From Sphaerisporangium perillae (lineage in GTDB: Bacteria; Actinomycetota; Actinomycetes; Streptosporangiales; Streptosporangiaceae): a stretch of DNA of 64,000 bases. Positions 25,033 through 40,229 of the stretch are shown piece after piece. The stretch spans positions 124,001-188,000 of the forward strand of contig NZ_JALLPO010000009.1 of the NCBI RefSeq assembly GCF_023276435.1, read 5' to 3'. The stretch's first letter is position 1, and the number at the start of each line of letters is the position of its first letter. The notes beneath the pieces were generated by a model that worked only from the letters and a program-made list of their open reading frames with translations, made no database searches and was not told where the DNA came from. The position numbers and the translations under genes were made by a program.

Positions 25033-25077
25033 GTTCTACGATTATCGAGTCACACGTCAAGGCTTTGTAGTACTTAT
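25033..25077. promoter_or_regulatory. boxC/paaX control region with 27-bp element
   Basis: The 27-bp element at 25051-25077 (CACACGTCAAG, then G, then CTTTGTAGTACTTAT) recurs at 40203-40229 with one change. Read on the minus strand, TTGACG (25055-25060) and TAGAAC (25033-25038) with a 16-bp spacer form a fair promoter for boxC. The element overlaps the -35 and lies 94 bp before paaX, so a regulator bound here could control both directions. Confidence 0.7.
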
Positions 25078-25171
25078 TACCGACGATAAGCTTGGTTCCC
25101 GTACCAGCGCGCGCGACGGGTTACGCGAGGGCGCGCGTCATCCGGGGTGACGGACGACAGGAAAGAAGACG

Positions 25172-26053
25172 GTGGCCACGCGCGAACGGAGCAATACAGC
25201 CGGCTCAGCGGCCGAGCCCTCGGGACGTCAGCGCGAGACGACCTCCCCGAGCGCCCGCTCGATCCTGCTGACGATCCTCGGCGAGTTCGTCCTGCCGCGC
25301 GGGGGCGAGGTCTGGACGGGCACCCTCGTCGACGCGCTGGGCGCCCTCGGCGTCGAGGAGAAGTCCGCGCGCCAGGCCCTGTCCCGCACCGCGGCCGAGG
25401 GGCTGCTCACCTCGACCCGCCACGGCCGCAAGGTCCGCTGGAATCTGACGCCGGCCGCCGAGCGGCTGCTCCAGGAGGGCACGGAACGCATCTACGGCTT
25501 CATGCGCAAGCCCCACGGGTGGAACGGCCGCTGGCTCGTCCTCACGGTGGGAGTGCCAGAGACACAGCGCCGGCTGCGGCACGCTCTGCGCACGCGGCTG
25601 ACCTGGCTCGGCCTCGGCTCTCCCTCCCCCGGCCTGTGGATCGTCCCCGACGCCTCCAAGGAGGCCGCGGTCCGTGCGATCATCGCCGAGCTCCGGCTGG
25701 AGGACCGCGCCTTCGCCTGGACGGGCCCGTCGGCCGCGATCGGCGACGCCGGCGCGCTGCTCCTGGCGGCTTGGGACCTCGATGACGTCGAGCAGCGCTA
25801 TCTCGGCTTCATCGAGCGCTTCGAGCATGTGTCGGTCTCCTCCGGCCGGGAGGCGTTCGTCCACCAGGTGCAGCTCATCCAGGAATGGCGGCGTTTCCCC
25901 TTCCTGGACCCCGACCTCCCCGGCGAGCTGCTCCGGCACGACTGGCCGGGCCCGCGGGCGGCGGCCACGTTCCACGACCGCCACGACCGCTGGCACCGCC
26001 GGGCGCAGGACGAGTGGGACCGCATGGACAAGGAGGCCGGCACCCGCAACTGA
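25172..26053 (+). CDS. PaaX-family transcriptional regulator
   Basis: The 293-residue protein has the PaaX architecture: a winged helix (SARSILLTILGEFVLPRGGE; EKSARQALSRTAAEGLL), a central domain (LGLGSPSPGLWIVPDASKEA) and a C-terminal segment ending in LIQEWRRFPFLDPDLPGELL, highly typical of the family. GTG 25172 has AGGAAAG upstream. PaaX proteins respond to aryl-CoA thioesters, classically phenylacetyl-CoA. Embedded between boxC and boxB, this one probably senses benzoyl-CoA or a related ester and controls the box genes. Confidence 0.92.
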   Translation: MATRERSNTAGSAAEPSGRQRETTSPSARSILLTILGEFVLPRGGEVWTGTLVDALGALGVEEKSARQALSRTAAEGLLTSTRHGRKVRWNLTPAAERLLQEGTERIYGFMRKPHGWNGRWLVLTVGVPETQRRLRHALRTRLTWLGLGSPSPGLWIVPDASKEAAVRAIIAELRLEDRAFAWTGPSAAIGDAGALLLAAWDLDDVEQRYLGFIERFEHVSVSSGREAFVHQVQLIQEWRRFPFLDPDLPGELLRHDWPGPRAAATFHDRHDRWHRRAQDEWDRMDKEAGTRN

Positions 26054-26157
26054 GCGTCGCGCCTGCCGGCCCATCCCTGGCATACCCGCGCACCCGGTGC
26101 CGGGCGCGGCGCCGGCGGACGCGGGTCCGCCACCGCCGCGACGTCCAGGCGCCGGCC

Positions 26158-27636
26158 TCAGACCAGGCCCTCCTCGGCCAGGTGCACGTAGTCGAACTCG
26201 ACCGGCTGGTCGTTGATGCCGGTCTTCGGCGGCGCGATCCAGCCGGCGAACTTGCCGTACTCGTACTCGGGGATCATGAGCGCCTGCACGTTCTCACGGT
26301 CCCGGGCGCCGGGCAGCCACTCGGAGGCCCTGGCCTGCCAGGTGGCCTGGTCGACGACCTCGCCCTGCGGCGTCACGTGGTGGCCCGCGTAGACGCCGAC
26401 CTGGCGGTTGAAGCCCTCGTGCGGCAGGGACAGCCGCTCCTCGAGCCCGGCGTCCTCGAGCGCCTGGTTCCAGCGGCGGACGCCGTTGGCGCAGTCCGCG
26501 ACGTACTCGTCCCGCAGGTCCAGGTTGAGCGCGCTCAGCATCGGCACCGTCTTGGTCTTGATCCGGCCGTCCTCGACGTAGCTCAGCTCGCGGGTGGCAT
26601 CGAGCAGGACGTGGTCGTCCTTGCGCTTGGTCTCCATCCAGCGGCCCTTCAGACCGGAGGAGTAGTAGTTGCCGGCGTTGGTGGACTGCTCGGAGCCGAA
26701 CAGGTCCATCGAGACCGAGAACTGGAAGTTCAGGTACTTCTGGATCACCTCCAGCGGGATGCCTCCGTGGGAGAAGACCTCCGCGGTGCCGTGCTCCTTC
26801 ATGAGCTCGGCGGTGCGTTCCAGGATCCGCTGGACGCCCGTGGTGCCCACGAACATGTGGTGGGCCTCCTCCTTGAGCATGAACTCGCAGGTGCGGGCCA
26901 GCGGGTCGAAGGCCGACTCCTTGAGCGTGCCGAGCTGGTACTTCCCGTCGCGGTCGGTGAAGTAGGTGAACATGAAGAACTGCAGCCAGTCGGTGGTCTC
27001 CTCGTTGAAGGCGCCGAGGATGCGCGGGGCGTCGAGGTCGCCGGAGTTGCGCTTGAGCAGCTGCTCGGCCTCCTCCCGGCCCTCCCGGCCGAAGTAGGCG
27101 TGCAGGAGGTAGACCATCGCCCACAGGTGGCGGCCCTCCTCCACGTTGACCTGGAACAGGTTGCGCAGATCGTAGATGCTCGGCGCGGTGCGGCCGAGGA
27201 CGCGCTGCTGCTCGACCGAGGCGGGCTCGGTGTCGCCCTGCACGACGATGAGGCGCATCAGGTCGGCGCGGTGCTCGCCCGGGACCTCCTGCCAGGCCGC
27301 CCCGCCCTTGTGCTTGCCGAAGCCGACCTTCCGGCCGGGGTCCCGCTCCGCGAGGAAGATGCCCCAGCGGTATCGCTCCATCGGGACGTGATCGAAGTGC
27401 GCCCACCCGTCACGCCCCACGGCGATCGCGGTGCGCAGGTAGACGTCCTTGGTCGGCAGGGACGGACCGAGCTGCCTCCACCAGTCGAGGAACTTCGGCT
27501 GCCATCCCTCGAGCGCGCGCTGCAGACGGCGGTCGCCGGCCAGGTCGACGTTGTTGGGAATCCGCTCGCTGTAGTCGATCTCGCTGATCGGTCCGGTGGG
27601 CAAGGGGGCGATGCCGGTGCGAGAGTCGATGCTCAT
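26158..27636 (-). CDS. boxB: benzoyl-CoA 2,3-epoxidase
   Basis: The 492-residue protein matches BoxB over its length, with the two diiron carboxylate motifs NVEEGRHLWAM and LKEEAHHMFVG, the intervening NEETTDWLQF, and the C-terminal YEYGKFAGWIAPP. With electrons from a BoxA-type reductase it epoxidises benzoyl-CoA using O2. ATG 27636 is preferred over GTG 27639 because AGGAG sits at normal spacing. It is transcribed alone or with boxD upstream, and is separated from boxC by paaX on the other strand. Confidence 0.93.
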   Translation of the reverse strand: MSIDSRTGIAPLPTGPISEIDYSERIPNNVDLAGDRRLQRALEGWQPKFLDWWRQLGPSLPTKDVYLRTAIAVGRDGWAHFDHVPMERYRWGIFLAERDPGRKVGFGKHKGGAAWQEVPGEHRADLMRLIVVQGDTEPASVEQQRVLGRTAPSIYDLRNLFQVNVEEGRHLWAMVYLLHAYFGREGREEAEQLLKRNSGDLDAPRILGAFNEETTDWLQFFMFTYFTDRDGKYQLGTLKESAFDPLARTCEFMLKEEAHHMFVGTTGVQRILERTAELMKEHGTAEVFSHGGIPLEVIQKYLNFQFSVSMDLFGSEQSTNAGNYYSSGLKGRWMETKRKDDHVLLDATRELSYVEDGRIKTKTVPMLSALNLDLRDEYVADCANGVRRWNQALEDAGLEERLSLPHEGFNRQVGVYAGHHVTPQGEVVDQATWQARASEWLPGARDRENVQALMIPEYEYGKFAGWIAPPKTGINDQPVEFDYVHLAEEGLV

Positions 27637-27673
27637 CACTGCTCTCCTGTCGTCAGGACGCCGTTCTCAGACA

Positions 27674-27714
27674 AAGTTCTACACTTCTTCTGCGTTCAAT
27701 CAAATATCTGTCAA
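27674..27714 (-). promoter_or_regulatory. probable boxB promoter and GTAGAACTT motif
   Basis: On the minus strand TTGACA (27709-27714) overlaps the upstream gene's stop codon. GTGTAGAACTTTG follows just before the boxB leader. GTAGAACTT matches the core GTAGTACTT of the 27-bp element upstream of boxC at eight of nine bases. The similarity is short, so the assignment is tentative. Confidence 0.35.
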
Positions 27715-29282
27715 CTATTTGCAGGCCGTTCACTCGTGATCGCCTCGAGGACGGCGGGGCTGCCCTGGACGGCGGTGCGCTGCAGGTGGGCATGGACGGC
27801 ACGCAGGCCGCCCTCCTCCTCGCCGCCGCCCGCACGGCCGGGGCCACCATGGACCAGCTGGGGCATGGGCGTGCCATGGCCGGTGGACTCCGCGGCGCTG
27901 TCGTGGTCCAGGACGAGGATGCGGCCGTGGTGGGCGGCCGCCGCGAGCACCACTTCACGGACGAAGTCCTTGTCGGCCGAGACCACGGAGCCGGCCAGGG
28001 ACCCCTCGCCGCAAGCGATCAGATCTCGCAGCTGCTCGGTGCCGGTGTACGGCATGAGGGTGCTCACCGGGCCGAACGCCTCCACCTCGTGCGGCTCCGG
28101 CCGGGCCACATCGTCGACGCGCACCAGCAGCGGGGACAGGAAGGCGCCGCGCTCCGGGTCCGCCCCCACGACCTCGACCTTGGCGAGGTCGCCGTGGACG
28201 ACCGACCCGGCGGAGGCGATCCGCGCCGCCGCCGCGCGCACGTCCTCACGCTGCGGGAGACCGACGAGCGGGCCCATGGTCACCCCGTCGGCGCCGGGTG
28301 CGCCCACGACCACGCGGGCGAGTTCGGCCTCGACGGCCTGCGCGACCATGTCGATCCGCGCCGCCGGGACGAACGCGCGCCGGATCGCCGTGCACTTCTG
28401 TCCCGCCTTGACCGTCATCTCGGTGACCAGGGCGCCCACGAACAGATCGAACTCCGGCCGGCCCGGCACGGCGTCCGGCCCGAGCACCGAGCAGTTGAGC
28501 GAGTCGGCCTCGGCGTTGAAGCGCGCCGAACGCCGCGTGACGGCCGCGTCGGCACGCAGCCGGGCGGCCGTGGACGCCGAACCGGTGAACCCGATGTGGT
28601 CCTGACCGCCCAGCAGGTCGAACAGGCCGGGGATGGCACCGCCGACAAGCTGGATCGCGCCCGGCGGCAGGGCTCCGGACTCCTCCATGATGAGCACCGC
28701 CCGCGCGGCGATGTACGCCGTGGGCGTCGCCGGCTTCACGATGGTCGGCAGCCCGGCGAGCAGGGCGGGCGCGAGCTTCTCGAGCATGCCCCACACCGGG
28801 AAGTTGAACGCGTTGATCTGCACGGCGATGCCGCGCGGTGTGGTGAGGATGTGCCGCCCCGCGAAGGTGCCCCCCTTGCCCAACGGCACCGCGTCGTCCT
28901 CGACGATGACCGTGCCGTCGGGAAGCCCCTTGCGGCCGAGGCTCGCATAGACCAGCGCGGTGCCGATGCCGCCGTCGACGTCGACCTTGGCGTCGCGCCG
29001 GGTGGCGCCGGCCCGGGCCGACAGGTCGTACAGCTCCTGCTTGCGCTCCTCAAGCGCCAGGGCGGCCGCCTTGAGCACGGCGGCCCGCTGGGGGAAGGTC
29101 AGCTCGCGGAGCGCGGCACCGCCGGTCCGTCGCGCGTAGCCGACCGCCCTGCCGAGGTCGAGCCCGTCGCTGCTCACCCGGGTGATGATCTCGCCCGTCA
29201 CCGCGTCGGCGACCTCGGCCCCGTCGCCGGTGCCGGCCTGCCAGGCCCCTTCCAGGTAACTCCGCAGAATCTCGGTGCTCAC
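27711..29282 (-). CDS. boxD: 3,4-dehydroadipyl-CoA semialdehyde dehydrogenase (BoxD / PaaZ aldehyde dehydrogenase type)
   Basis: The 523-residue protein matches the aldehyde dehydrogenase part of PaaZ and BoxD: INAFNFPVWGMLEKLAPALL near residue 150, ARFNAEADSLNCSVLGPDA, and catalytic Cys in VKAGQKCTAIRRA near residue 297. The MaoC-like hydratase half of PaaZ is absent, so it is the stand-alone form expected in a box pathway. It oxidises the CoA-linked semialdehyde made by BoxC to the dicarboxylyl-CoA. GTG 29282 overlaps the stop of the upstream dehydrogenase gene (GTGA). Confidence 0.88.
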   Translation of the reverse strand: MSTEILRSYLEGAWQAGTGDGAEVADAVTGEIITRVSSDGLDLGRAVGYARRTGGAALRELTFPQRAAVLKAAALALEERKQELYDLSARAGATRRDAKVDVDGGIGTALVYASLGRKGLPDGTVIVEDDAVPLGKGGTFAGRHILTTPRGIAVQINAFNFPVWGMLEKLAPALLAGLPTIVKPATPTAYIAARAVLIMEESGALPPGAIQLVGGAIPGLFDLLGGQDHIGFTGSASTAARLRADAAVTRRSARFNAEADSLNCSVLGPDAVPGRPEFDLFVGALVTEMTVKAGQKCTAIRRAFVPAARIDMVAQAVEAELARVVVGAPGADGVTMGPLVGLPQREDVRAAAARIASAGSVVHGDLAKVEVVGADPERGAFLSPLLVRVDDVARPEPHEVEAFGPVSTLMPYTGTEQLRDLIACGEGSLAGSVVSADKDFVREVVLAAAAHHGRILVLDHDSAAESTGHGTPMPQLVHGGPGRAGGGEEEGGLRAVHAHLQRTAVQGSPAVLEAITSERPANS

Positions 29283-30169
29283 GCCGGCTCCTCGCTCCAG
29301 TCGTAGAAACCTCTGCCGGTCTTACGTCCGAGATGTCCCTGTTCGACGAGCTCGACGAGCAGCCTCGGCGGGGCGAACCGCGGGCCGAGCTCGCCCTCGA
29401 GGTACCGCGCGATGCCCAGGCGGACGTCGAGGCCGACGAGGTCGGTGAGGCGCAGCGGCCCGGTCGGGTGGCCGTAGCCGAGCGTCATCGCGGCGTCGAT
29501 GTCCGCCGCGGAGGCGACGCCGGATTCGACCATGCGGATCGCCTCGAGACCGAGGGCGACTCCGAGCCGGCTGCTGGCGAACCCAGGGGCGTTCTTGACC
29601 ACCACCGCGGTCTTGCCGAGCCGCTCAACCCAGGCGACGGCCCGCTCGCGCAGGCCGGGATCGGTGGCGCCGGCGATGACCACCTCGACGAGCCTGCTGG
29701 CGGGGACGGGGTTGAAGAAATGCAGCCCGAGCAGCCGCTCCGGCCGGGCCAGGGCCTGGGCGAGCGTGTCGAGCGAGATGCTGCTGGTGTTGGAGGCGAT
29801 GACCGCGCCGGGGCCTGTCGCGTCCTCGATGGCGCGCAGGGTGACGAGCTTGAGATCGAGGTCTTCGGGCACCGCCTCGATCACGAGCCCCGACCCGGAA
29901 AGATCACGGGGGTCGGCCACGGCTCGCAGCCGCGACATCACCTTCCCCGCTTCCTCGGTGTGGCCGCGCCGCACACTGCCTTCGACCGTGTGCCGCACCC
30001 GGTCCCGGGCGGTCGCCGCGGCCTGTTCGTCGCGCTCCACGAGGATCACGCCGCAGCCGGCGAGGAGCAGGGCGTGGGCGATGCCCGCGCCCATCCGCCC
30101 GCCGCCCACCACCCCGCATCGAACGGGCAGCCGGAGACCGCCGGCGTCGGCGGCGGTGGTATCGGTCAC
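29279..30169 (-). CDS. 3-hydroxyacyl-CoA dehydrogenase
   Basis: The 296-residue protein has the N-terminal NAD site CGVVGGGRMGAGIAHALLLA, the substrate-site motif LLGLHFFNPVP with the catalytic His, and a C-terminal helical domain (GYGHPTGPLRLTDLVGLDV; GHLGRKTGRGFYDW). GTG 30169 is chosen because GGAG lies seven bases upstream; the frame remains open to 30265 without family sequence. It is coupled to the boxD gene by GTGA and should oxidise the 3-hydroxyadipyl-type CoA ester formed in the lower box pathway, giving a 3-oxo ester for thiolysis. Confidence 0.9.
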   Translation of the reverse strand: MTDTTAADAGGLRLPVRCGVVGGGRMGAGIAHALLLAGCGVILVERDEQAAATARDRVRHTVEGSVRRGHTEEAGKVMSRLRAVADPRDLSGSGLVIEAVPEDLDLKLVTLRAIEDATGPGAVIASNTSSISLDTLAQALARPERLLGLHFFNPVPASRLVEVVIAGATDPGLRERAVAWVERLGKTAVVVKNAPGFASSRLGVALGLEAIRMVESGVASAADIDAAMTLGYGHPTGPLRLTDLVGLDVRLGIARYLEGELGPRFAPPRLLVELVEQGHLGRKTGRGFYDWSEEPA

Positions 30170-30274
30170 CGCGGTGCTCCCGCTCCTGCGAGCACCAACG
30201 CGCTGGATGCCGTCATGACCATGCCTCACTTCGATACAGGCAGTTGCACGAACATAACCTGCCACGTTTTCCTT

Positions 30275-30398
30275 ACGTAGCAGAAGTCAAACGTAGCATG
30301 TACTCGCGCCCACCACCGGAGTGGACCACACTCCGCCCGCCCGGTCGGCCTGGACGTGGCAACGCCTGAGCGCGGATCACACACTCAACAGAGTGTGT
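30275..30398. promoter_or_regulatory. control region between hydroxyacyl-CoA dehydrogenase and enoyl-CoA hydratase genes
   Basis: The divergent gap holds three structured elements. ACGTAGCA is directly repeated at 30275-30282 and 30291-30298, 16 bp apart. CGGAGTG (30317-30323) pairs with CACTCCG (30329-30335). ACACACTC (30379-30386) pairs with GAGTGTGT (30391-30398). TTTGTAGCATTACC just before the hydratase ATG resembles part of the 27-bp boxC element. Which protein binds is not known. Confidence 0.5.
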
Positions 30399-30430
30399 GT
30401 CTGGCGTCGGTGATTTGTAGCATTACCACC

Positions 30431-31177
30431 ATGAACGGCACTCTGAACATCGAAGAGGGACCCGACCGCGTGCTCGTGCGGCTGAACCGCCCGCACGTGC
30501 GCAACGCCATCGACGCGGCCATGGTGGCCGACCTTCACGAGATCTGCGCCGAGCTGGAACGCCGCCCCCGGCTGCTGGTGCTGACCGGGACCGATGGCGT
30601 GTTCGCCGCCGGCGCCGACATCCGGGAGCTGCGCGACCGCCGCAAGGAGGACGCGCTCGCCGGGATCAACAGCGGCCTGTTCGAGCGGATCGCCAGACTG
30701 CCGCTGCCGACCGTCGCCGCCGTGGACGGCCCCGCGCTCGGAGGCGGAGCCGAGCTCTCCTACGCCTGCGACTTCCGGATCGCGACGCCGGGCGCACGCT
30801 TCGGCAATCCCGAGACGGGGCTCGGCATCATGGCCGCCGCCGGCGCCTGCTGGCGGCTGCGGGAGCTGGTCGGCGAGCCGCTGGCCAAGGAGGTCCTGCT
30901 CGCGGGCCGCGTCCTGTCGGCGGCCGAGGCCCGCGCGGCCGGGCTGGTCAACGAGCTGGTCCCGGCGGAGGAGCTGCTCGGCACGGCCGGACGCTGGGCC
31001 GACCGGATCCTCACGAGCGCGCCGCTGGCCTTGCGGCTGACCAAGCTGGCCCTCGCCGCCCCGCCCGGCGCCCATCCGGCCTTCGACGACGTGGCGCAGG
31101 CCGTCCTCTTCGAGACCGACGAGAAGCAGCGGCGGATGACCGCCTTCCTCGAGCGCCGGGCGGGAGCCGGTCAATGA
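30431..31177 (+). CDS. enoyl-CoA hydratase/isomerase
   Basis: A 248-residue crotonase with the oxyanion-hole segments GTDGVFAAGADIREL near residue 56 and VDGPALGGGAELSYACDFRI near 98. Glu of NPETGLG near residue 123 is the likely catalytic acid/base. ATG 30431 is used; an open frame continues upstream over the control region. It is divergent from the hydroxyacyl-CoA dehydrogenase, and together they perform hydration and oxidation of the adipyl-CoA-type product of ring cleavage. Confidence 0.9.
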   Translation: MNGTLNIEEGPDRVLVRLNRPHVRNAIDAAMVADLHEICAELERRPRLLVLTGTDGVFAAGADIRELRDRRKEDALAGINSGLFERIARLPLPTVAAVDGPALGGGAELSYACDFRIATPGARFGNPETGLGIMAAAGACWRLRELVGEPLAKEVLLAGRVLSAAEARAAGLVNELVPAEELLGTAGRWADRILTSAPLALRLTKLALAAPPGAHPAFDDVAQAVLFETDEKQRRMTAFLERRAGAGQ

Positions 31178-31248
31178 GGCCACCGCCCGGCATCAGTCCG
31201 CCTTCGGCCGCCGCCAGGGCGCCGGGACACCGGATGTCCGCGGTCAAG

Positions 31249-31271
31249 GTTCTAAATTGGAACAGGTTCTA
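31249..31271. promoter_or_regulatory. IclR-type operator upstream of the LLM oxidoreductase
   Basis: TGGAACAGGTTCTA at 31258-31271 is a TAGAAC-NN-GTTCTA type dyad, and a further half-site GTTCTA lies at 31249-31254. It ends 15 bp before the ATG, a position suited to repression. Related sites lie at 32174, 32669 and 34094. Confidence 0.65.
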
Positions 31272-31286
31272 CTACGCTCTCGTTCC

Positions 31287-32165
31287 ATGCGGTTCACCTA
31301 TGCCGAGGCCATGACCGACCCGTCCTACTACCTTCCGCTGGCCAAGGCCGCCGAGGCCGCGGGGTACACCAGCATCAGCGTGTCCGACTCCCTGATCTAT
31401 CCGAAGGAGTCCGACGCGAGCTATCCGTACACCGCGGACGGCGACCGGGAATTCCTCGCGGACAAGAGCTTCATCGAGACGTTCATCCTCATCGCGGCCA
31501 TGGGAGCGGTCACCTCGACGATCCGGTTCACGCCGTTCGTGCTCAAGCTGCCGGTGCGCCCGCCGGTGCTGGTCGCCAAGCAGGCGAGCTCGATCGCCTA
31601 CCTGACCGGCAACCGGCTCGGCCTCGGCGTCGGGCTCAGCCCCTGGCCGGAGGACTTCGCGGCGATGGGAGTGCCATGGTCGCGGCGCGGCAGGCGGATG
31701 GACGAGGCCATCGAAGTCGTCCGCGGCCTGACGGGCGGCGGCTACTTCGAGTACCACGGCGAGTTCTACGACCTGCCGCCGGTGAAGATCTCCCCGGTTC
31801 CCACGGAGCCGATTCCCATCCTGGTCGGCGGGCACAGCGAGGCGGCGCTGCGCCGGGCCGCCCGTCTCGGCGACGGCTGGATGCACGGCGGAGGCGACGC
31901 CCGCGAACTGGACGCGCTGCTGACCAGGCTGGCCGCCCTGCGCGCCGAGGAGGGCACCACCGGGCGGCCGTTCGAGGTCCATGTGATCTCCCTCGACGCG
32001 TACACGGTGGACGGGGTGCGGCGGCTGGCCGACAAGGGGGTCACCGACCTGATCGTCGGCTTCCGGATGCCCTACATCAAGGGTCCGGACACCGAACCGC
32101 TGGCCAAGAAGATCGAGCACCTGGAGCGCTTCGCCGAGTCGGTGATCGCGAAGATCGAGCCTTGA
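31287..32165 (+). CDS. LLM-class (probably F420-dependent) flavin-type oxidoreductase
   Basis: The 292-residue protein has the luciferase-like TIM-barrel pattern: FTYAEAMTDPSYYLPLAKAA, RLGLGVGLSPWPEDFAAMGV, and the family's repeated PIPILVGGHSEAALRRAARL followed by GDGWMHGG. It resembles actinobacterial F420-dependent oxidoreductases. ATG 31287 follows an IclR-type operator. It opens a run of genes that look like one catabolic unit, and would oxidise or reduce a hydride-accepting organic substrate that I cannot name. Confidence 0.85.
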   Translation: MRFTYAEAMTDPSYYLPLAKAAEAAGYTSISVSDSLIYPKESDASYPYTADGDREFLADKSFIETFILIAAMGAVTSTIRFTPFVLKLPVRPPVLVAKQASSIAYLTGNRLGLGVGLSPWPEDFAAMGVPWSRRGRRMDEAIEVVRGLTGGGYFEYHGEFYDLPPVKISPVPTEPIPILVGGHSEAALRRAARLGDGWMHGGGDARELDALLTRLAALRAEEGTTGRPFEVHVISLDAYTVDGVRRLADKGVTDLIVGFRMPYIKGPDTEPLAKKIEHLERFAESVIAKIEP

Positions 32166-32173
32166 CCAGAAAA

Positions 32174-32187: not shown

Positions 32188-32195
32188 GTTTCATT

Positions 32196-32682: not shown

Positions 32683-32716
32683 GCCAACCGGCACGCGGTC
32701 GAGCATGCTGGGGCGC

Positions 32717-33196
32717 ATGGATCTGATCGCGCTGGAGGAGATCCGCCAGACGAAGTACCGCTACCTGCGCTGCCTGGACCTCAAGCTCTGGGACGGCTTC
32801 GCCGACACCCTCACCGAGGACGCCGCGGCGGAGTACGACACCCACGTGGTCGGCGACCCGCTGCGCCTGGCCGGGCGTGAGGCCATCCTCGGCTACATGC
32901 GGGCCAACGTGGGGCCCGAGGTGATCACGACGCACCTCGTCAGCCACCCCGAGATCGAGATCGACGGCGACCATGCCAAGGGCACCTGGTGCCTCGACGA
33001 CACCGTCGTCGCCACGGCCTACCGCCTGCTGATCCGCGGATCCGCCTACTACGAGGACACCTACCGGCGCTGCTCCGACGGGCGGTGGCGGATCAGCGGC
33101 ACCGGCTACAAGCGGACCTACGAGTACACCGTGTCCCTCGACGACCTGCCCAGCCTCAGATTGACCGCGAACCGCTGGTCGACGCCCGCGACCTGA
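32717..33196 (+). CDS. NTF2-like (SnoaL_4-type) protein
   Basis: The 159-residue protein opens with EEIRQTKYRYLRCLDLKLWD and AYYEDTYRRCSDGRWRISGT closes its sheet, a pattern of SnoaL_4 proteins linked with aromatic-ring and polyketide catabolism. ATG 32717 is used, with an IclR-type dyad upstream. Its last 41 bases overlap the 3' end of the convergent IclR gene. It differs clearly from the preceding NTF2-like protein, so the two probably act on different intermediates. Confidence 0.78.
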   Translation: MDLIALEEIRQTKYRYLRCLDLKLWDGFADTLTEDAAAEYDTHVVGDPLRLAGREAILGYMRANVGPEVITTHLVSHPEIEIDGDHAKGTWCLDDTVVATAYRLLIRGSAYYEDTYRRCSDGRWRISGTGYKRTYEYTVSLDDLPSLRLTANRWSTPAT

Positions 33197-34082
33197 CCGG
33201 CGGCGCGCCGCCGAGCTCCGCGGTGACGGCGGCGGCGGCCGCGACGAGTTCGGCGCCGCGCCGGGCGATCTCCGCGCCGGTGACCGAGGCGCCGACGTGC
33301 AGGGTGAGAACCAGCTCCTGCCCGCCGTCGGCGTCGTAGGTGGGCGCGGCGATGAGGTTGACCGGGTGCCTCTTGCGCGGATCGAGGCCGGCGCCGAGGT
33401 AGACGCGTTCCCCGAGGCTCGACACCATCTCGCCGACCAGGGCGCGCACCTCCTGCGGCAGCTCGTACGCGGCGACACCGGCCATCAGCGAGTGCAGCCG
33501 CATGCCGGCCGGCGTGAGGCTCTCCACGAGGTATCCCGCCGCCCGGCAATGCTCGACGACCGCACGGAGATGCTCGCGGTCCATCCGCACCGGCAGCGTC
33601 GGCTCCTTGGCCAGCCACCGGTCGAGCTCCCTGTCGGGCCCCCACAGCACGTACATCAGGCCGACCGGCGGCGCGAACGGGTAGCGCTCGCCCACCTTGA
33701 CCGCCGGGGCGTCCGGCGGGGCGACCGCGTCGAGGATCATGATCTCCTCGCCGACGACGGCCGACGCGGTGCACGTGGCGTGATGGCGCTCGGCCAGCGG
33801 CGCCAGGTGCCGCCGCGCGACCTCACCGGCGGCGAAACTCCGCTGCGCGGCCCGTCCCGCCGCGACGAGAGCGGGGCCGAGGCGGTAGGCCGTCGTCCGC
33901 GCGTCACGCACCAGATAGCCGGCCGCGACCAGCTCGGTGAGGATGCCAAGGCAGGTGGGCTTGCTGATGCCGAGCTCGCGGGCGAGGACGGACAGGCCGA
34001 GCGGGCGGCCGCGGGCCGCGACGAAGTGGTCCAGGACGGCGATCACCCGCTGGGTCGGCGGCGAACGCCGGGCCGTTGCCAT
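33156..34082 (-). CDS. IclR-family transcriptional regulator
   Basis: The 308-residue protein has the IclR N-terminal winged helix (QRVIAVLDHFVAARGRPLGL; ARELGISKPTCLGILTELVAAGYLVRD) and the C-terminal effector domain (GEEIMILDAVAPP; GYLVESLTPAGM; NLIAAPTYDADG). ATG 34082 is used, since the frame upstream runs over the operator. A perfect TAGAAC-GA-GTTCTA dyad sits 12 bp before the start, suggesting autoregulation, and similar dyads precede the neighbouring genes. It is the likely regulator of the 31.3-37.3 kb genes. Confidence 0.92.
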   Translation of the reverse strand: MATARRSPPTQRVIAVLDHFVAARGRPLGLSVLARELGISKPTCLGILTELVAAGYLVRDARTTAYRLGPALVAAGRAAQRSFAAGEVARRHLAPLAERHHATCTASAVVGEEIMILDAVAPPDAPAVKVGERYPFAPPVGLMYVLWGPDRELDRWLAKEPTLPVRMDREHLRAVVEHCRAAGYLVESLTPAGMRLHSLMAGVAAYELPQEVRALVGEMVSSLGERVYLGAGLDPRKRHPVNLIAAPTYDADGGQELVLTLHVGASVTGAEIARRGAELVAAAAAVTAELGGAPPVRSRASTSGSRSI

Positions 34083-34093
34083 TGACCCCCACC

Positions 34094-34153
34094 TAGAACG
34101 AGTTCTACTCTCACCTGGAAGACAACCTACCGCCTCGGTACATATTTGTACCG
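34094..34153. promoter_or_regulatory. divergent operator region: TAGAAC dyad and CGGTACA dyad
   Basis: TAGAACGAGTTCTA (34094-34107) has perfect six-base arms. CGGTACATATTTGTACCG (34136-34153) has perfect seven-base arms around TATT. Both lie between the IclR start (34082) and the DUF1214 start (34172). The first matches the sites upstream of three other genes; the second is unique here. Confidence 0.7.
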
Positions 34154-34171
34154 CAACCCCGAGGGAGTCCG

Positions 34172-35350
34172 GTGTCTCCGCAGTCATTCGCCCAGGCGAT
34201 CACCGAGGCCGAGCAGATCATCCGCTCGGCGCCGCACGTGCGGACCGAGCAGGATCTCGCCGAGGGCCTGGACTACCTCGCCGGCAGCATCAAGGCGACG
34301 CTGCACATGGTCTGGGCCTACGACCGCGACTTCCCGTTCTTCGCCGCCTCCACCGGGCCGTACACCAAGCTCGGCCTGGACAACCCCGACACGCTCTACT
34401 TCCACGCCTACATCCGCGACGACGCGGAGTACGTCGTCACCGGCCGCCGCGGCACCACCGCCGACCTGAGCTTCCAGGTGCTCAACGGCGACTACTCGCC
34501 CTCACGGTCGCCCGACAGCCTCGCGGCCTTCGACGACCGCGACATCGAGATCGCCGCGGACGGGACGTACGAGCTGCGCTTCGGCCCCCCGCGACCGGAC
34601 GCGGGCCCGAACCACTTCACGCTCGGGCCGGGCGCGGCGATGCTGCTGGCGCGCGAGGTCTACAGCGACTGGCAGACGGAGCGGCCCGGCGAGATCCGCA
34701 TCCACCGGGCCGACACGCTCGGGTCCGCTCCCCCGCCGGTGCCGGTGGACAGGATGGCCCGAAGGTACGAGGTGGCCGGCAAGATGCTGGTCTCGCGGCT
34801 GCGCACCTTCCTCGCGTTCCCGGAGTGGCACTACCTCAACCTGCCCGTCAACACGATGACCGGGCCGCGGCCCACGCCCGGCGGCCTGGCGACGCAGTAC
34901 TCCTCGGTCGGCCACTACGACCTCGACGACGACCAGGTCATGGTGATCACCGTCCCGGTGCTGGCCCGCGCGGACGCGCCGTACCACGGCTTCCAGCTCG
35001 GCAGCATGTGGTACATCTCGCTGGACTACATCAACCACCAGACCAGCCTCACCGCCGACCAGGCGCGCGTCGATCCCGACGGGAAGATCCGCTACGTCGT
35101 CAGCGAGCGGGATCCGAGCCTCGCCAACTGGGTCGAGCGCACCGGGCACCGCCGCGGATACCTGCAGTTCCGCTGGCAGCGGCTCGGCCGCGAGCTCAAG
35201 CCCGACGACGGCCCCGAGGTGGAGGTGGTCGCGTTCGACGAGCTGCCGGACCGGCTCCCCTACTACGAACGCCAGCGGGTGACCCCGCAGGAGTGGGCGG
35301 CCCGGATCGCGGCCCGCCAGACCGCCGTCGCCGGAAGGATGCTGGGCTGA
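34172..35350 (+). CDS. DUF1214-domain protein
   Basis: The 392-residue soluble protein resembles DUF1214 family members: an N-terminal helical segment (AGSIKATLHMVWAYDRDFPF), then a beta-rich part with LGLDNPDTLYFHAYIRD, LTLGPGAAMLLAREVYSDW-type sequence, and near the C-terminus GFQLGSMWYISLDYINHQTS. No catalytic residues are known for the family and no signal peptide is seen. GTG 34172 has GAGGGAG upstream. It overlaps the SDR gene by ATGA and belongs to the IclR-controlled set. Confidence 0.72.
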   Translation: MSPQSFAQAITEAEQIIRSAPHVRTEQDLAEGLDYLAGSIKATLHMVWAYDRDFPFFAASTGPYTKLGLDNPDTLYFHAYIRDDAEYVVTGRRGTTADLSFQVLNGDYSPSRSPDSLAAFDDRDIEIAADGTYELRFGPPRPDAGPNHFTLGPGAAMLLAREVYSDWQTERPGEIRIHRADTLGSAPPPVPVDRMARRYEVAGKMLVSRLRTFLAFPEWHYLNLPVNTMTGPRPTPGGLATQYSSVGHYDLDDDQVMVITVPVLARADAPYHGFQLGSMWYISLDYINHQTSLTADQARVDPDGKIRYVVSERDPSLANWVERTGHRRGYLQFRWQRLGRELKPDDGPEVEVVAFDELPDRLPYYERQRVTPQEWAARIAARQTAVAGRMLG

Positions 35351-36126
35351 TGTCACTGGAGAACCGAGTCATTGTGATCTCCGGCGTCGGGCCGGGCCTC
35401 GGCCGCGGCCTCGCGCTCCAGTGCGCCAAGGCCGGCGCCGACGTGGTGCTGGCGGCGCGGAACGAGGCGCGGCTGACCGAGGTGGCGCGGGAGGTCGAGA
35501 AGCTCGGCCGCCGCGCGGTCCCCGTACCGACCGACATCACCGACGAGGCGTCCTGCGCGCGGCTGGCCGAGACGGCGCTGGACTCCTGCGGCCGGGTGGA
35601 CGGCCTGGTGCACAACGCCTTCGCGATGCCGCCGATGACCGATCTGATCACCATGGACCTCGACGCGATACGCACCGCCTTCGAGACCAACGTGGTCGCC
35701 GCGCTGCGGCTCACCCAGCTCTTCGTGCCCGCGCTCGCCGAGCACGGCGGCTCCGTCGTGATGATCAACTCGGCGGTGCTGCGGCACTCACGGCGTACCT
35801 ACGGCGCGTACAAGATGACCAAGTCCGGCCTGCTCTCCATCGCGCAGAGCCTGGCGACCGAACTCGGGCCGCGGGGCGTCCGGGTCAACACCGTCGCGCC
35901 CGGATACATCTGGGCGGACAACCTGCAGTGGTACTTCGCCTTCCTCGCAAAGAAACGCGGCGTCCCGACCCAGCAGGTGTACGACGAGACCGCCGCCGGC
36001 CTGGATCTGCGCCGGCTTCCCGAGCCCGACGAGATCGCCGACGCCGCGGTGTTCCTGCTGTCCCCGCTGGCGCGGGCGATCACCGGTCAGTGCCTCGACG
36101 TCAACTGCGGTGAATGGCACCACTGA
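35350..36126 (+). CDS. short-chain dehydrogenase/reductase
   Basis: The 258-residue SDR has the nucleotide motif SGVGPGLGRGLALQCAKAG, the acidic DITD, the NAF variant of the NAG motif in HNAFAMPP, Ser in VMINSAVL and the catalytic YGAYK. The C-terminus (PDEIADAAVFLLSPLARAIT) is typical of oxidoreductases acting on cyclic alcohols or acyl-CoA esters. ATG 35350 overlaps the DUF1214 stop, so the two are co-translated. The substrate is unknown; the neighbours suggest a hydroxyl-bearing intermediate of the IclR-linked pathway. Confidence 0.9.
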   Translation: MSLENRVIVISGVGPGLGRGLALQCAKAGADVVLAARNEARLTEVAREVEKLGRRAVPVPTDITDEASCARLAETALDSCGRVDGLVHNAFAMPPMTDLITMDLDAIRTAFETNVVAALRLTQLFVPALAEHGGSVVMINSAVLRHSRRTYGAYKMTKSGLLSIAQSLATELGPRGVRVNTVAPGYIWADNLQWYFAFLAKKRGVPTQQVYDETAAGLDLRRLPEPDEIADAAVFLLSPLARAITGQCLDVNCGEWHH

Positions 36127-36145
36127 CCCCGGAGGAACCGCGCCA

Positions 36146-37291
36146 ATGAGCACAGGACGCGAAAGTGTCGGCACCGCCGAGGACCTGCACGCCTCGGCCA
36201 GCAAGATCACGGGCCTGACCGACTTCGGCGAAGACCCCTACCTCGACGGCCTGGAGGTGCTGCTCTCGTCCTATGCCGGCGACGCGGCGCTCACCCCCCG
36301 GGGCAACAAGGCGGCACACGCGCTGCTGCGCGGCGCGCTCGCCGCCCGGCTGCTGTCGGAGGCGGCGTGGAAGCAGCACCCGGAGCACGCGGACGTATCC
36401 ATCGAGCGGCCCATCTTCGTCACGGGCCTGCCACGCACCGGCACCACCGCGCTGCACCGGCTGCTCGCCGCCGACCCCGCGCACCAGGGGCTGGAGGTGT
36501 GGCTGACCGAGAGGCCCCAGCCGCGGCCGCCACGCGAGACGTGGGCGGGCAACCCGGTCTTCCAGGCCGTCCAGTCCGGATACGAGCGCCACCACGTGCG
36601 CAACCCCGAGTTCATGGGCGTGCACTACATATCGGCCGACATGGTCGAGGAGTGCTGGCAACTGCTGCGCCAGTCGATGCGCGCGATCTCCTTCGAGTGC
36701 CTCGCCCACCTGCCGACGTACTCCGCGTGGCTGGAGACGCAGGACTGGACGCCGGCCTACCGCCGGCACCGGCGCAACCTGCGGCTCATCGGGCTCCACG
36801 ACGCCGGCCGGCGCTGGGTGCTGAAGCATCCCAGCCACCTGTTCGCCCTGGACGCACTGATGGAGGTCTACCCCGACGCGCTGGTCATCCAGACCCATCG
36901 CTCGCCGCGGACCGCCATGGCGTCGATGTGCAGCCTCGCGGCCCACGCGACCGCGGGCTGGTCGGAGGTGTTCACCGGCGCGGTGCTCGGGCGGGACCAG
37001 CTGGAGCTGTGGGGCCGCGGCCTCGACCGGTTCCGCGCGGAGCGCGCGAAGCACGATCCGGCGCGGTTCTTCGACGTCGACTACGACGCGTTCGTACGCA
37101 ACCCCCTCGGCACGATCGAGGCCGTCTACGCCCACTTCGGGCTGCCTTTCGACGACGCCGCGCGCAAGGCCATGAGCGCGCTGCACGAGGAGAGCCGCAC
37201 AGGCGCGAGCCGGCCGGCCCATCGCTACGACCTGTCCGACTTCGGGCTGACCGGCGAACAGATCGACGAGCGCTTCGCCTTCTCCGGATAG
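36146..37291 (+). CDS. sulfotransferase family protein
   Basis: The 381-residue protein has the sulfotransferase PAPS-binding loop RPIFVTGLPRTGTTALHRLL near residue 90 and the second nucleotide segment VLKHPSHLFALDALMEVYPD with IQTHRSPRTAMAS. This long actinobacterial form is often found in steroid or lipid catabolic clusters. ATG 36146 has GGAGGAA upstream and lies 19 bp after the SDR, so it is the end of the operon. A true sulfuryl transfer to a hydroxyl made by the pathway is possible, but acceptor and activity are unproven. Confidence 0.85.
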   Translation: MSTGRESVGTAEDLHASASKITGLTDFGEDPYLDGLEVLLSSYAGDAALTPRGNKAAHALLRGALAARLLSEAAWKQHPEHADVSIERPIFVTGLPRTGTTALHRLLAADPAHQGLEVWLTERPQPRPPRETWAGNPVFQAVQSGYERHHVRNPEFMGVHYISADMVEECWQLLRQSMRAISFECLAHLPTYSAWLETQDWTPAYRRHRRNLRLIGLHDAGRRWVLKHPSHLFALDALMEVYPDALVIQTHRSPRTAMASMCSLAAHATAGWSEVFTGAVLGRDQLELWGRGLDRFRAERAKHDPARFFDVDYDAFVRNPLGTIEAVYAHFGLPFDDAARKAMSALHEESRTGASRPAHRYDLSDFGLTGEQIDERFAFSG

Positions 37292-37327
37292 CCCGTCAAG
37301 CCACGCACCAGGGCATCTCGGTCCGGT

Positions 37328-37767
37328 GATCCCCCAAACGTCGTCACCGGCGGCGAGCCGCACGAGCAGCGGGGCTACGGCGACTTCCTGGACAAGACGT
37401 CCCGGTATGAGCGCGCGGACGAGTTCCTGCACGTGGTGCGGGCGCTGTGGTCCGGCGAGACGGTCGATTTCACGGGAAGGCACATCCAGATCGAGGGCGG
37501 GCGCATCCCCCGCGTCCCCGATCCGCTGCCGCCGATCTACTTCGGCGGCTCCTCCGGCCCGGCCGGTCCGGTCGCGGCACTCCGATGTCTACCTCACCTG
37601 GGGCGAGCCGCCCGCGGCGGTCGCCGGCACGCTCGAGTGGATCAGGTCGCTGGCGGCCGAGCGGGGCCGCACGCTGCGGTACGGCCGTCGACGCCCCCGG
37701 CTTCGGCGCCCTCCGCCGCCGCCTGCTCGCCCTCCTGCACGTCCCCGCCGGCCCGGACGAGCCGTAG
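37328..37767 (+). pseudogene. relic of an alkanesulfonate-monooxygenase-like (SsuD) LLM flavoprotein
   Basis: The sequence NVVTGGEPHEQRGYGDFLDK, then ERADEFLHVVRALWSG and PPIYFGGSSG is the central part of SsuD-type monooxygenases. At about 37580 a frameshift is needed to continue (HSDVYLTWGEPPAAVAGTLE and SLAAERGRTLRYG). Start and C-terminal parts are missing, and the last stretch (APGFGALRRRLLALLHV) does not match the family. It is a truncated and frameshifted remnant downstream of the sulfotransferase gene. Confidence 0.8.
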
Positions 37768-37783
37768 CGGGTCCCGCCGCGGC

Positions 37784-39283
37784 TCAAAGTGATCGCCGAT
37801 GGGTCCACCGGCCGCCCAGGAGCGTGCCGAGCACCGCCGGACGGCGCAGTTCCTCAGGGGTGAGCAGGGACGGGTCCCGCTCCAGGATCATCAGGTCGGC
37901 CGGGTCTCCTACCTGTACGGCAGTGCGTCCCCTGCCGGCCGCGGCGAGCGCCGCCCGGAGCGGGATGGCCTGCTCGGGATGCCAGGGCGGGCGCTCGTCA
38001 TCGGTCCGGGCCACCGCCGAGGCGATGCCGTCCCAAGGGTCCAGCGGCGCGACCGGGGCGTCGGAACCGAGCTCCAGGGTCGCGCCCGCCGCGAGCAGAT
38101 CGGCGTACGCGAAGGCCCGGGAGGTGCGGCCGCGCCAGGCGGTGTCGGCGACCTCGCGGTCGTCCGGGGCATGCGCCGGCTGCACCCCGGCGACCAGGCC
38201 CGGCCGCGCGAACCTGGCGAAGTCGGCCGCGCGGACGAGTTGCGCGTGCTCGATGCGCCCCGGACAGCCGACGGAGTCGAAGGCGTCGAGCGCGATCGAG
38301 GCCGCGAGGTCCCCGATGGCGTGCACGGCTGGGTGCAGACCGTGCCGGGCGGCGAGCGCCATCGTCCCGACCAGCTCGTCCGGCGCCATCTCCAGCCGCC
38401 CGCACCCCCCGGAGCCCGGGTACGGGTCGTCACAGCAGGCGGTACGGGTGTTGAGCGAACCGTCGAGGAAGATCTTGACCGGCCCCACCTCCAGCAGCCC
38501 GCCGGAACCCGGCACCGGGTCGCCGGTGCGCAGCCCGCGGGCGATCGCCTCGTCGAGCCGGCTCCCAGGAATCGAGCAGGTCACCCGCACGGCGACAGCC
38601 TGCTCGCCGACCCGCCGCAGCCAGTCCGTGACGTTGTCGGCGAACTCGAAATCCAGCAGGCCCGTCACGCCGAGCTCCGCGGCCGCGGCGGTCGCCTCGG
38701 CCACCCACCTGTCCAGCAGATCGAGAGGGGGCGGTGGCAGCGCGGCCAGCGCCTGGTAGCACTCCCCGTCACGCAGCACCCCGGTCGGATGGTCACCCCT
38801 GCCGATGAGAGCGAGCGCGGCGGGGCTGAGCCAGATCGTGTGCAGGTCGTTGCTGATCAACACGACGGGATGGGCCGCGGGAAGCAGCGACTTGTCCGGC
38901 TCGTCCGGCCAAAGTGCGTCACGGAACCCGAACCCCACGGCCGGCTCGGACGACCGGACGTGCGGCCGGACCAGGTCGGCGGCCTCCCGCGCCGAACGCG
39001 CACCACGCAGATCGATCCGCCGGCGGGCCTGGGCCCACTGCACGCTGTGCACGTGCGCGTCCCAGAGCCCAGGCAGAAGCGTCGCCCCCTCAAGATCCAC
39101 GTCCTGGACGCCGGCCCCGGCGGCGGGCCGCTCGTCCCGCACGGCGGCCACCCGGCCGCCCGAGATCAGAACGTGCCGCAGGGGCCCGTCCAGGCCGACC
39201 CGCGCGTTACGCAACAGCAGACCCGGCCGCACATCGGGAGTCGGAGGAACAGAAGGCGTCGAGCCCACAGCACCAGAGGACAT
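37784..39283 (-). CDS. amidohydrolase family protein (YtcJ-like)
   Basis: The 499-residue protein has the metal-dependent amidohydrolase layout: N-terminal beta domain (LLLRNARVGLDG; LEGATLLPGLWDAHVHS with the HxH metal ligands), a TIM barrel with HPAVHAIGDLA and RIEHAQLV, and C-terminal GSDAPVAPLDPW with the last metal Asp. DGSLNTRTACC is a hallmark of the YtcJ branch. Enzymes of this branch hydrolyse N-acyl or formamide-like bonds; the substrate is not predictable. It is transcribed alone, convergent with the sulfotransferase unit. Confidence 0.88.
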   Translation of the reverse strand: MSSGAVGSTPSVPPTPDVRPGLLLRNARVGLDGPLRHVLISGGRVAAVRDERPAAGAGVQDVDLEGATLLPGLWDAHVHSVQWAQARRRIDLRGARSAREAADLVRPHVRSSEPAVGFGFRDALWPDEPDKSLLPAAHPVVLISNDLHTIWLSPAALALIGRGDHPTGVLRDGECYQALAALPPPPLDLLDRWVAEATAAAAELGVTGLLDFEFADNVTDWLRRVGEQAVAVRVTCSIPGSRLDEAIARGLRTGDPVPGSGGLLEVGPVKIFLDGSLNTRTACCDDPYPGSGGCGRLEMAPDELVGTMALAARHGLHPAVHAIGDLAASIALDAFDSVGCPGRIEHAQLVRAADFARFARPGLVAGVQPAHAPDDREVADTAWRGRTSRAFAYADLLAAGATLELGSDAPVAPLDPWDGIASAVARTDDERPPWHPEQAIPLRAALAAAGRGRTAVQVGDPADLMILERDPSLLTPEELRRPAVLGTLLGGRWTHRRSL

Positions 39284-39556
39284 GCCGGAACCCTAACCAC
39301 CGGGCAGCCGCCCACCACGACGAGGCCGTCCAGGACATCCCGCGGCCGATCCGCCGCGCCGCCCGAGGCCCCGACGGAACGTCCGAAGAGACGCCGGCCG
39401 CTCCCCTGACCGGGATCAGGCCGGACGTGGATCTGGAGCGCTCGGCAACGCGTGCGAAGCTCTTCACCTGCTGGATATGCCATCCTGGCTGGAGAACCGT
39501 GCGGACATGTGTCACGGTTCTCGGGTGCTCTCGGTGCCGGGTTCGCCGTTGAGCGG

Positions 39557-40084
39557 CTACGGGTCGATCCTGCGCAGCTCCTGCCGGTAGCGCTTCGCGT
39601 TGTCGAGATATTCACCTACCCCGTAGTCGATCCACTCGGCCTGCGCGGTGCCGTCCATCGGCCTGGGCCGGGCGGGCACGCCGAGGGCCATGTGGCCGGC
39701 GGGGACCTCCAGGCCCTCTGGCACGAGCGCCTGCGCGCCGATCACCGACCCCGCGCGCACGACGGCGTGGTTGAGGACCACGGCACCCGAGCCGATGAGG
39801 CAGCGGTCCTCGACCGTGCACCCCTCGAGATGGGCGTTGTGCCCGACCACGCAGTCACTGCCGATCACGGTCGGCCGCTGCTCGGTCGTGTGCAGGACCG
39901 TGCCGTCCTGAATGGAGGTGCGCTCTCCGACGCCGATCCACCCGAAGTCGCCCCGCAGCACCGCCGTCGGCCATATCGACGCCTCGGCGCCGATCCGCAC
40001 GTCGCCGATGACGACGGCGTCCGGGTGGACGTAAGCGTCCGGATGGATCCGGGGCACCTGGTCTCCGAGCGCGTAGATGGGCAT
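39557..40084 (-). CDS. gamma-carbonic-anhydrase-like hexapeptide protein (PaaY-like)
   Basis: The 175-residue left-handed beta-helix protein has successive hexapeptide turns (HPDAVVIGDVRIGAEASIWP; VVGHNAHLEGCTVEDRC; GSGAVVLNHAVV) and the His metal ligands in TVLHTTE and GHNAHLEG. Both gamma carbonic anhydrases and PaaY thioesterases look like this. Its upstream region carries the 27-bp element otherwise found only between boxC and paaX. That makes a PaaY-type role, cleaning up dead-end CoA thioesters of the aromatic pathway, the better guess. Confidence 0.8.
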   Translation of the reverse strand: MPIYALGDQVPRIHPDAYVHPDAVVIGDVRIGAEASIWPTAVLRGDFGWIGVGERTSIQDGTVLHTTEQRPTVIGSDCVVGHNAHLEGCTVEDRCLIGSGAVVLNHAVVRAGSVIGAQALVPEGLEVPAGHMALGVPARPRPMDGTAQAEWIDYGVGEYLDNAKRYRQELRRIDP

Positions 40085-40202
40085 CTCTCACTCCACCGCG
40101 GAATCCGCGACCATCGGGGTGTCCACGGCCGGAAACCATCGTCGCCGAGGACGACCCGGCCGCGGGGGTCTCAAGCCTCAATATTCGGCGATTCTACAGT
40201 TC

Positions 40203-40229
40203 CACACGTCAAGACTTTGTAGTACTTAT
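40203..40229. promoter_or_regulatory. second copy of the 27-bp boxC/paaX element
   Basis: CACACGTCAAG, then A, then CTTTGTAGTACTTAT: identical to 25051-25077 at 26 of 27 bases. ATTCTAC lies upstream as TTCTAC does at boxC, but six bases closer. It lies 118 bp before the paaY-like start and 144 bp before the methyltransferase start. Confidence 0.75.

Follow-up and report, generated by a model that had tools for sequence, protein, structure and literature searches.

A candidate PaaX operator of benzoyl-CoA (box) genes in Sphaerisporangium perillae and its probable acquisition by a paaY-like gene

We analyzed a 64,000-nucleotide stretch of the Sphaerisporangium perillae genome (contig NZ_JALLPO010000009.1, positions 124,001 to 188,000; hereafter the window) in which a 27-bp element stands in two divergent intergenic gaps, one between boxC and the gene of a PaaX-family regulator and the other upstream of a paaY-like gene. 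We conclude that the element is probably the operator of a box (benzoyl-coenzyme A, CoA) regulon, bound most plausibly by PaaX, and that the paaY-like gene would have acquired it through internal deletion of a duplicated box operon. This reading is based on conservation, position, genome-wide specificity, co-occurrence with PaaX, orthology of paaY and a fusion scar, and from it we infer PaaX as the binding protein, repression as the mode of control, benzoyl-CoA as the inducer, and activity of the paaY promoter.

The element and its copies in the window

As an earlier note on this DNA had claimed, the 27-mer CACACGTCAAG[G/A]CTTTGTAGTACTTAT occurs on the plus strand at 25051-25077 and 40203-40229 with 26 of 27 bases identical, and both gaps are divergent: the first lies between boxC (ATG at 25002, minus strand) and paaX (GTG at 25172, plus strand), and the second between paaY (ATG at 40084, minus strand) and a methyltransferase gene (ATG at 40374, plus strand). 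With up to 3 mismatches the 27-mer matched twice in the window and never in 100 shuffles. For the 14-base core CTTTGTAGTACTTA, a search tolerating up to 2 mismatches gave three matches in the 9.3 Mb genome, comprising the two window copies, both exact, and one place with 2 mismatches. The note's argument that a chance match is negligible thus holds against shuffled sequence, but the proper background is the motif rather than random DNA. Pairwise identity among 30 sites chosen by their core pattern averaged 18.7 of 27 bases, and the best match of the window copies to sites of other genomes was 23 of 27. Part of the identity of the two copies stems from a family-wide consensus, and 26 of 27 is still well above that background. 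Their likeness covers about 65 bp and takes in the -10 region; the spacing differs by 2 bp between them.

The three best-scoring places in the window reached 37.0, 35.7 and 19.5 bits, and the next best 12.3 bits. The two stronger sites are the copies already reported; the third, weaker copy at 30405-30427 had been overlooked. It carries CGTCGG in place of CGTCAA with the distal half intact, and an extended pattern (see below) matches there with 3 mismatches at 30381-30420. The copies and the associated promoter features are as follows.

25051 to 25077, minus strand: copy 1, reading CTACAA-N4-TTGACG on the boxC strand (35.7 bits; exact match to the extended pattern)
25055 to 25060, boxC strand: presumed -35 box of boxC, TTGACG
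25031 to 25070, minus strand: extended boxC promoter/operator, CTACAA-N4-TTGACG-N14-CGTAGAACAT, with presumed -35 and -10 and the architecture of the 297-genome scan
30405 to 30427, minus strand: third, weaker copy, between an enoyl-CoA hydratase (ECH) gene and the hcdh-paaZ-boxB operon (19.5 bits)
40203 to 40229, minus strand: copy 2, upstream of the paaY-like gene (37.0 bits; -35/-10 spacing 2 bp above that of boxC)

Distribution and specificity across genomes

A matrix built from 12 closest-clade sites was used to scan 80 boxC loci from named genomes, from 250 bp upstream of the boxC match to 60 bp inside it, at a threshold of 14 bits; at least two of the matrix training sites (Acrocarpospora, Thermocatellispora) are also among these loci. 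Of the 80 loci, 46 had a site that reached the threshold upstream of boxC. When these regions were resampled with first-order statistics, the observed score was attained in 0 of 100 cases for 45 of the 46 sites and in 1 of 100 for the other (L019). The 34 loci below 14 bits included those of Proteobacteria, Rokubacteria and Dormibacterota as well as several from Actinobacteria (Actinomycetospora, Geodermatophilus, Blastococcus and most Pseudonocardia loci, among others).

A short motif, CGTCAADNNNTTGTAGYNNNT, was unspecific when used alone. In the home genome it gave 29 matches with up to 2 mismatches, of which only the 3 exact ones were retained, versus 83 for the reversed control, and in 18 genomes it gave 34 matches with up to 1 mismatch versus 103 for the control. 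All 15 exact matches in the 18 genomes were at boxC/paaX, paaX2 or paaY, but a position at box genes is established for just 3 of the 19 matches with one mismatch. Because of this lack of specificity we used the extended pattern. It was partly derived from earlier sites, so its exact matches in the home genome and at previously seen sites are partly by construction; the match at C38:88246, that at window position 30381 and most matches in the family genomes are independent of how the pattern was built.

When 297 family genomes were searched for the extended pattern, allowing up to 1 mismatch, 84 sites were found in 56 genomes, and none for the reversed control. Seven of these are in the home genome, and all 77 others (30 + 47) were inspected for their target gene. 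The earlier note had envisaged that many copies away from aromatic genes would speak against its prediction. Copies of that kind were few: 73 of the 77 sites lie directly upstream of boxC, benzoate-CoA ligase, ATP-binding cassette (ABC) substrate-binding or paaX genes. The target was boxC for 51 sites (24 + 27), counting one locus (L316) with a boxC remnant only and then a ligase gene; it was benzoate-CoA ligase for 14 (3 + 11), an ABC substrate-binding gene for 7 (3 + 4) and paaX for 1. Both this distribution and the sites at 46 of the 80 boxC loci support the proposal that the element is an operator.

Sites in the home genome

With up to 3 mismatches the extended pattern matched 11 places in the home genome, versus 2 for the reversed control, and 7 of the 11 have 0 or 1 mismatch. 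The pattern misses the paaY copy because the -35/-10 spacing there is longer; with that copy included, the genome holds about 10 sites. Target context was assigned for 9 of the 11 matches, the other two being on contigs C55 and C54.

Window: site with 0-1 mismatch in the boxC/paaX gap
Contig C47: site with 0-1 mismatch at a second paaX gene
Contig C47: two sites with 0-1 mismatch ahead of an ABC substrate-binding gene that is accompanied by a permease gene
Contig C38: site with 0-1 mismatch at a second boxC-boxB-benzoate-CoA ligase-amidohydrolase operon
Contig C26: site with 0-1 mismatch at an operon of four acetophenone-carboxylase-like subunits and an acyl-CoA synthetase (below strict equivalog cut-offs)
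Contig C2: site with 0-1 mismatch at the start of a decayed substrate-binding gene
Contig C38: weaker match ahead of an acyl-CoA synthetase gene, with one extra base between the halves
Window, 30381 to 30420: weaker match between ECH and hcdh

On C26 (L262, G000:C26:155001-168500) the exact extended element precedes the acetophenone-carboxylase-like operon with its acyl-CoA synthetase gene at 2902-12089, and this operon is a candidate for the upper pathway of the same regulon. Two further loci are marked by decay. On C2 (L263, G000:C2:130001-144500), positions 12700-13083 hold the element, then a signal peptide and a fragment of an ABC substrate-binding gene cut off by an early stop, near a tannase-type gene; this appears to be another promoter stranded by deletion. 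On C47 (L157, G000:C47:40001-60000), positions 12568-15852 hold a decayed second box cluster that retains its promoter/operator. Its remnants cover 71 residues of boxC, 47 of boxB and 84 of hcdh, and its paaX2 (72%) and a paaZ-type gene (82%) are intact.

Proposed promoter and operator architecture

Aligned boxC promoters of relatives read CTACAA-N4-TTGACG-N14-YGTNGANYMT on the boxC strand. In this arrangement TTGACG would naturally serve as the -35 box and GANYMT, located 18 bp downstream, as the -10. The element would then cover and precede the -35 box, where a bound repressor would be expected to exclude RNA polymerase. A test for a long-range dyad (position 5 versus 31 and 34 in 26 sites) gave no clear covariation. 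We had also considered a FadR/GntR-type reading of TTGTAGTACTT (consensus TNGTNNNACNA), which was dropped because the conserved core is CGTCAA-N4-NNGTAG.

Origin of the paaY-like gene and its promoter

The features that bear on how a gene standing apart from the box cluster came to carry the element are as follows.

39557 to 40084, minus strand: paaY-like hexapeptide protein of 175 amino acids, box-linked clade (TIGR02287 136.8 bits, cut-off 319.6)
40104 to 40127, minus strand: 3'-terminal remnant (VDTPMVAD) of a box-operon ferredoxin gene in the paaY leader, agreeing at 23 of 24 bases with the ferredoxin gene of the window (21487-21510)
21480 to 21809, minus strand: box-operon ferredoxin, source family of the remnant

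The protein falls below the cut-off of the PaaY model (TIGR02287) and also below that for gamma carbonic anhydrase (NF050158, 134.8 versus 250 bits). In a tree, it and 24 box-linked homologs split from 18 gamma-carbonic-anhydrase-like paralogs with support of 100/99, and E. coli PaaY and CaiE are on a branch of their own apart from the box-linked clade. Seven of 17 relatives have an ortholog of 80-88% identity, which shares contig and strand with the boxC element and sits 4.6-5.7 kb downstream of it. Among the 80 named boxC loci, paaY-like matches of at least 44% were found in 18, three of them partial (L005, L007, L008), and one more distant match had 34%. The gene directly follows a ligase gene or its site in three loci (L295, L297, L340), and in L112 paaY and paaX are divergent with a site between them.

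The paaY leader has 118 bases between the element and the start codon, and together with the element some 65 bp of it are homologous to the boxC promoter; the final codons of a box-operon ferredoxin gene close the leader. Shuffled ferredoxin sequence reached at most 18 of 24 bases of the ferredoxin remnant in 60 shuffles, and ferredoxin is directly ahead of paaY in L196 and L054. The remnant encodes M, as do all eight close relatives (L193-L199, L201), where the window's own ferredoxin has T, so the remnant probably derives from another copy. A duplicated operon whose interior was deleted, starting immediately after the promoter and stopping at the end of the ferredoxin gene, would seem to give exactly this leader. 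The earlier note's link between the paaY-like gene and benzoyl-CoA metabolism is therefore upheld by the orthologs in the box operons of relatives, the ferredoxin remnant and the L112 arrangement. The paaX-paaY linkage in E. coli is an analogy only; the window protein scores below the PaaY model and falls in a separate box-linked clade.

An arrangement of a related kind was seen in L316 (G252:C9:40138-44177), where positions 1663-2040 hold a site beside an intact-looking paaX, then a boxC fragment and then a ligase gene; this may be another instance in which an operon lost an internal segment next to its operator.

Which regulator binds the element

The regulator encoded beside boxC is the following.

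25172 to 26053, plus strand: PaaX-family regulator, box clade (PF07848 64.4, PF20803 66.4 and PF08223 68.0 bits; cut-offs 24.8, 24 and 22)

All three PaaX-family Pfam domains are thus over their cut-offs, and the protein matches PDB chain 8a39, a repressor of phenylacetate degradation, with an E value of 3.7e-22. The PaaX equivalog TIGR02277 was not reached (164.5 bits versus a cut-off of 264.55). With the PaaX class cut at about 40% identity, 54 of the 297 family genomes have both box-type PaaX and a site, 36 have PaaX only, 2 a site only and 205 neither; box-type PaaX is therefore present in 54 of 56 site-bearing genomes, and 90 of the 297 have PaaX. The distance to a box-type paaX gene is at most 10 kb for 60 of the 84 sites and at most 300 bp for 36. 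In the 80-locus set a PaaX homolog was found in 46 of 46 site-bearing genomes versus 19 of the 33 searched without a site (of 34 siteless loci, L054 was left out; one of the 19 matches is weak, at 33%). When four other regulators were compared, namely the AraC, IclR and Rrf2 types of the window and the FeaR-like protein of C26, each matched 0 of the 80 boxC loci, versus 47 for PaaX.

Several observations weigh against our conclusion. For four of the 77 sites found in other genomes (L304, L334, L321, L331), no target gene was recognized. L304 and L334 adjoin hcdh-paaZ and boxB; L321 and L331 are near none of the queried genes and are probably chance matches, since they are held by the only two site-bearing genomes without PaaX (G234, G148). 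A simple scan for E. coli-type sigma-70 promoters found none in the boxC/paaX or paaY gap, and the longer -35/-10 spacing at paaY may make that promoter weak. Thirty-six of the 90 PaaX genomes, counted irrespective of box gene content, have no extended pattern with up to 1 mismatch. Where paaX stands away from boxC (L100, L103, L107), no site containing the GTAG half precedes it, L107 offering only a 15-bit match there in which that half is absent, and with a remote paaX it is the boxC or benzoate-CoA ligase gene that keeps the site (L173/L285 in G251; C28 in G274; C14 in G201). The site therefore follows box genes more than paaX, and its absence at remote paaX genes can be counted against simple autoregulation of paaX. 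The recognition-helix region of PaaX did not cleanly separate loci with a site from loci without one. As PaaX and the box genes occur jointly, correlation does not tell which protein binds, and the co-occurrence would suit any regulator restricted to this lineage; the identity of the binding protein is the weak link.

The element could be the operator of the box regulon with another lineage-restricted regulator as its binder and PaaX as no more than a neighbor. The sites that remain at boxC or ligase genes when paaX is elsewhere, the lone paaX genes lacking the GTAG-half site and the PaaX genomes without the extended pattern would all suit such an arrangement, but we consider it unlikely given the occurrence of box-type PaaX in nearly every site-bearing genome of both sets, the failure of the four other regulators to match any boxC locus and the many sites within 300 bp of paaX. 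That there is no specific operator, and that the element is a conserved strong promoter (TTGACG as -35 plus a -10) duplicated together with its operon, strikes us as very improbable. TTGACG and the -10-like YGTNGANYMT, about 18 bp apart, are certainly promoter-like, and the two window copies are paralogous over their shared 65 bp. However, the CTAC block, which precedes the -35 box by about 9 bp, belongs to no promoter element, and still 43 of the 46 sites retain it (GTAG on the opposite strand), a rate matching that of CGTCAA (42 of 46), in a set that was picked by the matrix and so is not selection-free. The near-confinement of the extended pattern to aromatic-CoA genes in the 297 genomes is also unlike a housekeeping promoter. 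As for the paaY copy, it is rather doubtful that it is a decaying relic, with paaY expressed from elsewhere or not at all. Its longer spacing and the other box pieces of the genome that keep promoters beside broken genes (C47, C2) would agree with decay, whereas the copy keeps 26 of 27 bases and the highest score in the window, and paaY is an intact 175-amino-acid frame 88% identical to its best relative.

Genes of the box cluster

The remaining box genes of the window are listed below; both the BoxB and BoxC equivalog cut-offs are exceeded, which places the cluster in the box pathway.

23260 to 25002, minus strand: boxC (TIGR03222 850.6 bits, cut-off 712.3)
26158 to 27639, minus strand: boxB, benzoyl-CoA 2,3-epoxidase (TIGR03225 751.8 bits, cut-off 499.1)
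27711 to 29282, minus strand: boxD/paaZ-type dehydrogenase (NF008868 597.1 bits, cut-off 444)
29279 to 30265, minus strand: 3-hydroxyacyl-CoA dehydrogenase (hcdh)
30431 to 31177, plus strand: ECH (ATG at 30431; the longest open reading frame starts at 30356)

Behind boxC, a 128-amino-acid frame at 22877-23263 has as its sole NCBIfam match positions 106-170 of the benzoate-CoA ligase model. It appears to be a ligase remnant in the box operon, since in relatives such as L006 this place is taken by a full ligase gene; in the home genome a full ligase gene is on C38. At 21480-22880 are genes for a thioredoxin-reductase-like flavoprotein and ferredoxin, which accompany boxC in many actinobacterial loci and may replace BoxA as the electron supply of BoxB (no search for BoxA was made). 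A gene for an Amidohydro_2 protein, a box-linked enzyme, lies between ferredoxin and paaY in L006 (14585-15454); in the second boxCB operon (L159, 15191-16051) such a gene follows that of benzoate-CoA ligase. A 392-amino-acid frame at 34172-35350 has strong coding bias (GC content at third codon positions, 0.97) and no Pfam match at an E value of 0.001.

Proposed mechanism and regulon

We propose that the PaaX-family winged helix-turn-helix protein encoded at 25172-26053, with its second copy on C47, would bind CTACAA-N4-TTGACG and block RNA polymerase when aromatic substrate is absent. An aromatic CoA ester, most likely benzoyl-CoA formed by the ligases or from acetophenone via benzoylacetate, would release it, and uptake, CoA activation, epoxidation, ring opening and paaY would then be induced together. 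The paaY-like gene would originally have been a distal gene of the box operon, and the lone paaY would now be driven by a boxC-type promoter as a result of the loss, from a duplicated operon, of the segment between the promoter and the end of the ferredoxin gene. By analogy with E. coli PaaY, which clears a dead-end ring-expanded CoA ester, the natural guess for the window protein is a comparable rescue function within the box pathway.

More broadly, a PaaX-family protein may run a dispersed benzoyl-CoA regulon in many Actinobacteria through a bipartite operator, CTACA...25 bp...YGTNG, reshuffled here by duplication and internal deletions that fused the operator-promoter to new first genes. 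Its members would be ABC uptake, CoA ligases, acetophenone carboxylase, boxCB, the lower pathway and paaY. We regard the case for and against this broader proposal as evenly balanced. If the operator assignment is correct, it would give Actinobacteria a defined benzoyl-CoA operator with a named candidate regulator, and a benzoyl-CoA sensor open to direct testing. It would also allow regulon members to be predicted from sequence, a route that has already pulled in the acetophenone-carboxylase operon and the ABC uptake system. Finally, it would make the break-up of an operon readable, a gene keeping its regulation because deletion brought the promoter to it.

Comparison with known systems

Within the literature searched, which left out most subscription papers and was available in part, we found neither a PaaX-controlled box regulon nor this operator; the specific control of the aerobic box pathway described there is that by proteobacterial BoxR/BzdR, and the PaaX-controlled regulons are those of paa genes. 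In Betaproteobacteria BoxR/BzdR is an XRE-type repressor with TGCA repeats as its operator. It controls box genes, benzoate-CoA ligase and benzoate ABC uptake (PMC6449761). The pathway is the same and the members are similar, whereas the regulator family and operator are different, and TGCA is absent from all three element-bearing gaps of the window. TetR-type PaaR regulons of Burkholderia, Corynebacterium and Thermus rely on a CoA-ester-responsive repressor of a hybrid aromatic-CoA pathway (PMC9493321). They resemble our proposal in CoA-ester-responsive control of an aromatic-CoA pathway and differ in protein family, in their palindromes and in controlling paa rather than box genes.

The PaaX regulon of E. 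coli comprises paaZ, paaABCDEFGHIJK and paaXY. Its reported operator is a long-spaced inverted repeat, TGATTC(N27)GAATCA (PMC9493321); PaaX is released by phenylacetyl-CoA, and PaaY hydrolyzes the dead-end ring-expanded CoA ester (PMC9493321, PMC4498308). The spacing of the window operator recalls that of the E. coli operator, but its sequence does not: TGATTC and GAATCA are absent from all three gaps, and TGATTC-N20-34-GAATCA is absent from the window. The E. coli system controls paa genes, whereas that of the window would control box genes of benzoyl-CoA metabolism through a protein below the PaaX equivalog cut-off. The two are alike in having a PaaX-family regulator, an operator placed over a promoter, an aromatic-CoA pathway and a PaaY-type hexapeptide gene.

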